From assembly GCA_028688145.1 (NCBI GenBank), contig JAQTYU010000008.1, forward strand, positions 62,001 through 126,000: a DNA stretch of 64,000 bases, read 5' to 3'. The notes below the pieces were generated by a model, which made no database searches, was not told where the DNA came from, and saw nothing but the letters and a program-made list of their open reading frames with translations. The stretch is from Thiotrichaceae bacterium. GTDB lineage: Bacteria > Pseudomonadota > Gammaproteobacteria > Beggiatoales > Beggiatoaceae. Position 1 is the stretch's first letter. Each line of letters begins with the position of its first letter. The translations under genes and the position numbers were made by a program. Below are positions 2 to 19,195 of the stretch, piece by piece.

Positions 2-1252
2 CTGTCGCGTGCTAAACAAGAATTAGAACGCTTGAAAGCTGAGGCAGATCAGGACAAGCGTGCCAGTGATGAGAAATTACAGCAAGAATTAGCCAAGCTT
101 ATCGAGCGCAAAGAACATGAACAACGCCGTTTGAAGCAAGAAATGGAAGGCTTGCTACAACAAACCCAACAAGAAGCCGAATTATTGAAAGTGCAGCGTG
201 ACAGTGCGCGCGCCATGATGGAGCAGCAAGAAAAGGCAAGTCGCGAACGCTTGTTGTCTGCCTATAAACATCAAACGGGTGGACACAAGGGGCTGTTTAT
301 TGGGGTGGGGGTTGGTGTTGTTATTGCTGCCGCTTTGGGGGGAGTTTTACTATTCACCCCGTGGTTGGATAATATTGTTGGTATTAAAAAGGTAACCCAA
401 GGTTCGCCTCAAGTCGCGGTAAATCATGTGCCTGAAAATCATACACAGGCTAATCCTGAACCCGCAGCACGCCCTGTCGTTGAAGAAAAACCCACCTTAC
501 AACCCAGCGCAATGAAAGCCTTAGGGGTTTATCGCGATAAATTAACACGCGGCGGGGCAGCTCCCACGATGGTGAAATTACCTGCGGGGGATTTCTTGAT
601 GGGGGTTCGCGGTTCTATGCCGTATCAAGAAGAGCGTCCGCAATATCAGGTTCATTTGGAAGGTTTTTCGATTGGGAAAACCGAAATCACCTTTGATGAA
701 TATGATATTTTTGCAGGGGATACGGGTCGTCCTTTGCCTGAAGATAAGGGCTGGGGACGGGGGATGCGCCCTGTGATTAATATTTCTTGGGATGATGCCA
801 ATGATTACACCAAATGGCTGACCGAACAAACGGGACATCAATACCGCCTCCCCAGTGAACGGGAATGGGAATATGCTGCCGTCGCGGGCAATTTTGACTC
901 GTCTTATTATTGGGGCAATGCGATTGGGCAGAATAATGCCAATTGCGCTTTGTGTGGCAGTCAGTTTGATGCACAAAGCACCGCGCCTGTGGCAAGTTTT
1001 GCCCCGAATAGTTTTGGCTTACATGATATGATCGGCAACGTTTTAGAATGGACGAATAGCTGTTTCCGTCCTAACTATCAAGGTGCGCCGAGTTCTGGGC
1101 AAAATTGGGAAGGCGGCGACTGCTCGCGGCGCATGGTGCGGAGTAGTTCTTATAGAACGTATGAAAACGCATTGCGCGTGACTAAACGTAATAGTTATAA
1201 CCCAAAAACTCGCATGGATGTTTTAGGTTTTAGAGTGGTGCGGGTCGATTAG
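2..1252 (+). CDS. FGE-sulfatase (SUMF1-like) domain membrane protein, 5' partial
   Basis: The frame is open from base 2, so the gene begins before the window. The visible N-terminal part is a Lys/Glu/Gln-rich coiled coil of about 80 residues. A single hydrophobic segment follows (near bases 285-365), then a Pro/Ala-rich linker. The C-terminal half is a formylglycine-generating-enzyme/SUMF1-type domain, shown by LPAGDFLMG, YRLPSEREWEYAA, a GLHDMIGNVLEWTNS motif and a final LGFRVV. In bacteria this fold is often a non-catalytic C-type-lectin-like module of signalling or envelope proteins. The coiled coil plus membrane anchor suggests an envelope protein with its lectin-like domain outside the cytoplasm. 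Real enzymatic activity is not supported by the sequence. Confidence 0.85.
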   Translation: MSRAKQELERLKAEADQDKRASDEKLQQELAKLIERKEHEQRRLKQEMEGLLQQTQQEAELLKVQRDSARAMMEQQEKASRERLLSAYKHQTGGHKGLFIGVGVGVVIAAALGGVLLFTPWLDNIVGIKKVTQGSPQVAVNHVPENHTQANPEPAARPVVEEKPTLQPSAMKALGVYRDKLTRGGAAPTMVKLPAGDFLMGVRGSMPYQEERPQYQVHLEGFSIGKTEITFDEYDIFAGDTGRPLPEDKGWGRGMRPVINISWDDANDYTKWLTEQTGHQYRLPSEREWEYAAVAGNFDSSYYWGNAIGQNNANCALCGSQFDAQSTAPVASFAPNSFGLHDMIGNVLEWTNSCFRPNYQGAPSSGQNWEGGDCSRRMVRSSSYRTYENALRVTKRNSYNPKTRMDVLGFRVVRVD

Positions 1253-18176: not shown

Positions 18177-18293
18177 ATGAATCTAATTCTGTCGGTATTA
18201 AAATATCTTTTTATCGGTTTTTTAATGACTATTGGATTATTCTTGTTTTTGTTTATATTTAGGAGTTACGCAGTTGAATCGCTAACTATTTGA
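18177..18293 (+). pseudogene. 5' fragment of a membrane-anchored gene split by a 117-bp element
   Basis: The ATG at 18177 begins MNLILSVLKYLFIGFLMTIG and a hydrophobic run. At 18260 the reading frame enters the palindromic element and stops at 18291-18293. Removing the element (18260-18376) and one copy of the 5-base duplication ATATT joins this frame exactly to the downstream frame. The restored protein has an uninterrupted hydrophobic N-terminus running into SIPITPNQVAYVL. The intact ancestor was therefore probably a protein of about 300 residues with an N-terminal membrane anchor. Confidence 0.75.
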
Positions 18294-18376
18294 TTTTACT
18301 AAAAACATGATTGTGCAGCGCACAATGCTAACTCATTGTAAATAAAAGAATTCATGTTTCAACTGCGTAACTCCTA
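18260..18376. mobile_element. 117-bp palindromic element (MITE-like) with 5-bp target duplication
   Basis: Perfect 19-bp terminal inverted repeats, TAGGAGTTACGCAGTTGAA and its complement, bound a 117-bp non-coding element. The bases ATATT occur on both sides (18255-18259 and 18377-18381), as expected for a target-site duplication. It has no coding capacity. It splits a gene, and its excision would restore the frame. Confidence 0.85.
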
Positions 18377-18400
18377 ATATTATTTTTTCTATTAATATTA

Positions 18401-19195
18401 GTGTCTATTCCCATTACCCCAAATCAAGTTGCATACGTATTAGTTAATGATATGAAGGATGGAGGTGTAGCGGTTAGTCCAGCAGAATTTTATGGGAATA
18501 TAATCTTAGAACCATTAAGAGCAAACTCAAATGATTTTAATAAATTAAACCGTATTAATTCCGTACGGCTTGCTGAAGTATTAGTTTCTTCTCCAAGCCC
18601 TGAAAAGTTTAGATTAGCCATTGAATTATTTAATAGAAATGAGAATATTTATGCAAAATTAGTTGGTTCAATTGGATTAATCGCTAATGGATATGATGTA
18701 GGAGAAATAAATGAACAATCTCTCATTGTTCAAGCTGCGATGGGCGAATTAAAATTTATTAAAAAAGATTATGAAAGTTATCAATTAAGAAAAGATAGAT
18801 ATAGTGTGTTGGGAATAATTGGGCTGTCAAAAACAAAAAATAGAAAAGTACTGTCTTATTTATTTAAGATTCTTGATGTTATACCTGAAGATTATGTGAG
18901 GCACAGTCAGGCTTGCAAGGCACTGGAAGAGTTGAGTTATATTGAGGCTGTTCCCATTTTAGAGCAGAAAATGCTTGATGTAAAATTTGACTATATTTTA
19001 CATGCGTTTAGGGCATTGTTACGTCTTGATAAAGATAAAGCGATTAAATCAGCCATCACTAGAATAGCTATTGATACCTCTAACAAACAGCAGATAAACA
19101 AGTTAATTTCAGCATTAGAAAAAGCCACAGGAGAGCGTTTTGGTGCTGATACGAAAGCGTGGCTAAACTGGTTAGGGGAGCAACCAATAAATTAA
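18401..19195 (+). CDS. C-terminal remainder of the split gene, helical repeat (HEAT-like) protein
   Basis: The frame is open from about 18371 and continues for 265 residues with normal composition. The first in-frame start after the element is a GTG at 18401 with no good ribosome site, so expression is doubtful. The protein is mostly helical. Paired amphipathic helices such as AVPILEQKMLDVKFDYILHA suggest HEAT/TPR-like repeats, with a C-terminal GERFGADTKAWLNWL segment reminiscent of HEAT-repeat proteins of unknown function. It is AT-richer than its neighbours. The parent protein would have been membrane anchored with this domain outside. A terminator follows at 19263. Confidence 0.6.
   Translation: MSIPITPNQVAYVLVNDMKDGGVAVSPAEFYGNIILEPLRANSNDFNKLNRINSVRLAEVLVSSPSPEKFRLAIELFNRNENIYAKLVGSIGLIANGYDVGEINEQSLIVQAAMGELKFIKKDYESYQLRKDRYSVLGIIGLSKTKNRKVLSYLFKILDVIPEDYVRHSQACKALEELSYIEAVPILEQKMLDVKFDYILHAFRALLRLDKDKAIKSAITRIAIDTSNKQQINKLISALEKATGERFGADTKAWLNWLGEQPIN

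Follow-up and report, generated by a model that had tools for sequence, protein, structure and literature searches.

The 117-bp palindromic element that splits an open reading frame (ORF) in the window (the whole stretch of DNA analysed, 64,000 nucleotides) is, by its anatomy, a miniature inverted-repeat transposable element (MITE). We consider it highly probable that a non-autonomous MITE of about 117 bp, moved in trans by an IS701-family transposase whose insertion sequence (IS) has the same 17-bp ends, inactivated an orphan gene when it inserted. The ends, the duplications, the copy number and the frame break were all read from the sequence (Table 1), as were the parent IS and the family of its transposase.

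The course of events can be proposed as follows. The transposase of the IS701-family IS would bind the ends of the element, which would be inserted through a 5-bp staggered cut, and gap repair by the host would duplicate 5 bp of the target (here ATATT). Having landed 83 bases downstream of the start of an orphan gene of low GC content, the element would have shifted the frame and inactivated the gene. More tentatively, an IHF site in the interior may bend the short DNA so that its ends meet, or may affect transcription of neighbouring sequences.

Table 1. Features of the element and of the ORF that it interrupts (positions refer to the window)
Feature	Position	Strand	Basis or remark
MITE, 117 bp	18260..18376	+	approximately 27 family copies in the genome
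Left terminal inverted repeat, 19 bp, TAGGAGTTACGCAGTTGAA	18260..18278	+	sequence; 17-bp match to IS ends
Right terminal inverted repeat, 19 bp	18358..18376	-	perfect reverse complement of TAGGAGTTACGCAGTTGAA
Target-site duplication ATATT, left copy	18255..18259	.	direct sequence reading
Target-site duplication ATATT, right copy	18377..18381	.	direct sequence reading
Central palindrome ATTGTGCAGCGCACAAT (hairpin)	18310..18326	.	sequence
Predicted IHF site, perfect consensus WATCAANNNNTTR	18283..18295	-	best-conserved interior stretch of the family
Second IHF-like site, degenerate (2 mismatches), same orientation as the first	18329..18341	-	sequence
Host ORF, 5′ part, 27 codons and 2 bases	18177..18259	+	sequence
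Host ORF, 3′ part	18382..19195	+	264 aa open from GTG 18401

The first-pass annotation had described a 117-bp segment whose 19-bp inverted ends are perfect and which is accompanied by a 5-bp ATATT duplication, all of which can be read directly in the sequence. All 19 bases of the terminal inverted repeats (TIRs) are paired, and the first 17 of them are those found at the ends of the autonomous IS701-family IS. As is typical of MITEs, the element is shorter than approximately 500 bp and lacks a transposase gene; it contains no ORF of 60 aa or longer. Its hairpin has a z score of -7.2. A selected RNA hairpin was considered as well, and it is unsupported because the consensus fold consists of the terminal repeats alone, with a covariation term of almost nil. 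An Rfam search with the element matched no family.

The strong evidence for a mobile element is its family and not the restoration of the reading frame. The same 3.6-Mb genome holds 27 full or near-full copies, and with no more than one mismatch allowed, 126 matches to the 14-bp core of the ends were counted, compared with 0 for the reversed control pattern. We were able to extract 55 elements with these ends from the genome, and an exact 5-bp duplication is present at 24 of them, while 0.73 would be expected from shuffled flanks (maximum 4). No similar peak is seen for duplications of 4, 6 or 7 bp, and the exact duplication is absent at about half of the TIR-bounded copies. Three copies at separate loci are mutually identical, with a duplication of 5 or 6 bp at each locus; two further copies are identical to one another. 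The search for other copies of the ends that had been proposed was thus productive, and the family copies with their 5-bp duplications strongly support the earlier claim that a non-coding, transposon-like insertion broke the gene. That this insertion was also recent, as had been suggested, is reasonable given the perfect ends and duplication and a downstream ORF that has remained open; against it stands the finding that the nearest copies, those of the three-copy identical group, share 96% identity with the copy in the window and are not identical to it.

Other elements with the same ends are 53–61, 121–131 and 185–186 bp long; their interiors are unrelated, and some contain a nested palindrome. 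The elements of 121–131 and 185–186 bp represent a second MITE class of this genome, with the nested palindrome GTAGGGTGTATAAGGCGTAGCCGCCATACACC. We also observed fragments of a different transposase (ending in ...NAWVERCKSLVKNFERSLENANTKLCFIRLIIKQLASL) inside or adjoining elements with these ends, for which no Pfam match was obtained.

Several contigs of the genome stop approximately 126 bases into one repeated element that carries the ends of the MITE. Four left-end contigs are identical over this 126-bp stretch, as are four right-end contigs, and the flanking 5-mers pair them one-to-one (C4 with C8 by TGAAT, C5 with C19 by AAGCA, C10 with C20 by CATCC and C14 with C21 by TATCT). The repeats at the contig ends represent a single IS, present in four collapsed copies and making 5-bp duplications. 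A complete IS of 1043 bp is present in a different genus within the same taxonomic family (genome G011, locus L167). Its 17-bp ends are those of the MITE, and it has a 5-bp duplication (TAGGT) and a 331-aa transposase, which scores 385.7 bits against the IS701 model NF049921 (NCBIfam transpos_IS701_2; cut-off of 250 bits). The assembly of the genome of the window contains no intact transposase ORF; the collapsed IS copies are visible there by their ends alone, the assembled copies are broken, and internally deleted ones keep the same ends. Decayed fragments of this same IS701-type transposase are numerous genome-wide, some of them as TIR-bounded internal deletions of 363–733 bp. The interior of the MITE was not derived from that of the IS, as the match is confined to the ends. 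The ends common to the MITE and the IS701-family IS, as well as the 5-bp duplications seen in both, identify this IS as the parent of the MITE, which its transposase probably mobilises in trans.

In its present state, the 5′ frame of the host ORF enters the element and stops at 18291–18293, which yields a hydrophobic peptide of 38 aa. Removal of the element with one ATATT copy (117 + 5 bases) joins the two frames, as the first-pass annotation had pointed out, into a single ORF of 897 nt (298 aa) with an unbroken hydrophobic N-terminus. The frame is likewise restored by deletions of 117 + 2 or 117 + 8 bases, and for this reason its restoration alone is weak evidence. The GC content of the 3′ part is 33%, compared with 43% for the window, and the codon-position values of the 264-aa downstream ORF (0.42/0.29/0.24, that is 24% at the third position) are gene-like. 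This ORF gave a weak, below-threshold match to HEAT repeats and a poor single-sequence structure prediction (mean pLDDT of 43.6); a search of solved-structure sequences returned nothing significant. No homologue of the host gene was detected in 57 related genomes, the scanned GTDB contigs or plasmids, which is why the uninterrupted version, for which the relatives and the scanned GTDB collection were searched, was not found there.

The copy in the window is the sole 117-bp copy that lies inside a long ORF (298 aa) at the reconstructed empty site; the remaining ones are intergenic or touch short ORFs, so that the family is otherwise an intergenic one. Since the gene is a low-GC orphan and no other 117-bp copy splits a long ORF, tolerated inactivation is the simplest reading, that is, the host gene was dispensable, possibly acquired, and inactivated by the insertion. 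It is presumably non-functional now. As a gene interruption, this is an ordinary, routine event.

Other readings of the same locus fit less well. It is improbable that the split is harmless or even useful, with the 264-aa ORF being translated from the GTG at 18401 as a soluble protein that lacks the membrane segment. That ORF has indeed stayed open and has gene-like codon-position GC, but a recent insertion would have left it little time to decay. Moreover, no homologue shows a soluble form, and a promoter scan of the element revealed no excess over shuffled sequences, with the promoter-like sites lying on the strand opposite to the host ORF. The idea of the first-pass annotation that precise excision might occur, in a manner similar to phase variation, appears far less probable still. 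As a reversible switch, the element would have to be excised precisely and frequently, which would make the host gene phase-variable. Its precise loss with one duplication would restore the frame, and replication slippage can in principle remove a hairpin that has short direct repeats on either side; however, a duplication of 5 bp is short for efficient slippage. No invertase, recombinase, population variant or switch anatomy was found, nor was there an empty allele or a homologous gene in the 57 relatives and the scanned GTDB contigs, and the suggestion is thus left without support. As the other 117-bp copies are intergenic, no general role in gene switching is visible either.

There is hardly any chance that the element is a fortuitous palindrome or an assembly artefact instead of a mobile element. 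The assembly is a draft, and nothing else speaks in favour of this explanation, which is refuted by the family, with its 27 copies, its peak of 5-bp duplications and its members in other genera and phyla.

Within the inserted MITE, which remains our preferred reading, interior columns 24–36 (minus strand) fit the IHF consensus, WATCAANNNNTTR. In an alignment of 29 copies from the genome of the window and its relatives, the nine defined positions of this site have a mean conservation of 1.80 bits, compared with 0.88 for its four N positions and 1.12 for the remaining interior, and the IHF comb ranks first among 67 interior placements by both measures. The perfect consensus is present in 23 of the 27 same-size copies of this genome but in only 1 of the 20 short elements that share these ends and belong to other classes, and it arises in 2–3.5% of dinucleotide shuffles. 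A homologue of IHF-beta scores over its family cut-off in the genome of the window, the sole genome checked for IHF. IHF is predicted to bind the element and may have a role in synapsis.

The ends are distributed far beyond this genome. Among the matches listed from the GTDB contigs, the exact 19-bp end is present in Chloroflexota, Acidobacteriota, Myxococcota, Desulfobacterota, Armatimonadota and Planctomycetota, as well as in Cyanobacteria, Methanotrichales, cable bacteria, Chromatium, Magnetococcales and others. These listed matches include 86 TIR-bounded elements, 84 of which are 79–209 bp long; duplications of 5 bp were observed in 42 and of 6 bp in 13. In the IMG/VR collection, a single viral contig (IMGVR_UViG_3300009788_000061) holds the exact 17-bp end, and phages are therefore no obvious carrier.

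The class of 115–117 bp is present in Beggiatoaceae-like genomes, Chromatium, Magnetococcales and cable bacteria, and its listed members have a perfect IHF consensus in 14 out of 21 cases (0.30 expected). Also among the matches listed, the consensus is located at position 23–24 or its mirror in 10 of 12 elements of Desulfobulbaceae, in both of those from Chromatium okenii and in one from Magnetococcales. The latter carries two perfect sites, at 24 and 69, with the second being the equivalent of the degenerate site in the window. When the alignment was made non-redundant (<85% identity), the IHF comb (placements 24 and 25) was again the most conserved interior stretch. The listed elements with the same ends from Chloroflexota (0/24), Acidobacteriota (0/11) and other Desulfobacterota (0/14) do not have the consensus, a distribution in which GC content and the common descent of the 115–117-bp elements are confounding factors. 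As elements of other sizes evidently transpose without this site, IHF cannot be required by all elements with these ends.

It is possible, if rather doubtful, that the 115–117-bp elements are a single MITE family with members in several classes and phyla (Beggiatoaceae-like genomes, Chromatiaceae, Magnetococcia and the cable bacteria of the Desulfobulbaceae). The fixed length and the IHF site 24 bp away from one end would then be kept because DNA below its stiffness length has to be bent sharply by IHF before a single transposase complex can join the two ends, while the same-end elements in phyla without a visible site would use other interiors. If this is true, IHF would be a built-in cofactor of these miniature transposons. 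The wider family is in any case of more use than the gene interruption. It consists of abundant and broadly distributed TIR-bounded miniature elements that are tied to a parent of the IS701 type that makes 5-bp duplications, and its fixed-position consensus site, conserved across distant bacteria, gives a testable prediction of IHF dependence.

A text search of the literature for the end sequence, with figures, supplements and subscription journals outside its scope, found no description of it. Among known systems, the IS701 family (NF049921) is the closest by parentage: the parent transposase is well over the cut-off, and the parent shares its 17-bp ends and the 5-bp length of its duplications with the MITE, which differs from the IS in its lack of a transposase and in its unrelated interior. 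ISAba11 is a possible relative with a 5-bp duplication.

The Correia elements of Neisseria (NEMIS/CREE) are mainly intergenic, and their 155-bp form binds IHF in vitro (PMC2229807); the IHF site of Correia-type elements was shown experimentally (PMC2229807, PMC10969869). Similarly to them, the element studied here is a short, TIR-bounded, palindromic MITE with an internal IHF consensus, at which binding of IHF is in our case a prediction. A Correia element proper was ruled out, as there is no Rfam match and the ends, the length, the 5-bp duplication and the IS701-type parent all differ.

Multi-copy, mostly intergenic MITEs with one copy that breaks a gene or operon are also known from Chunjie and other gene-disrupting bacterial elements (reviewed in PMC10969869). 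Chunjie-1, at 235 bp, is set apart from the 117-bp element by its size. Closer in taxonomy are the MITEs of Thiomargarita nelsonii, likewise a member of Beggiatoaceae, in which a hupL MITE and a dsrA MITEtron were described, the former within a protein gene that it interrupts (PMC4853749). The hupL MITE is described as having 10-bp direct repeats and no identified parent (PMC4853749), unlike the element in the window, with its 5-bp duplications and identified IS701-family parent. Thus, the insertion is of a kind that is already known, and gene-breaking MITEs have been reported before in Beggiatoaceae.
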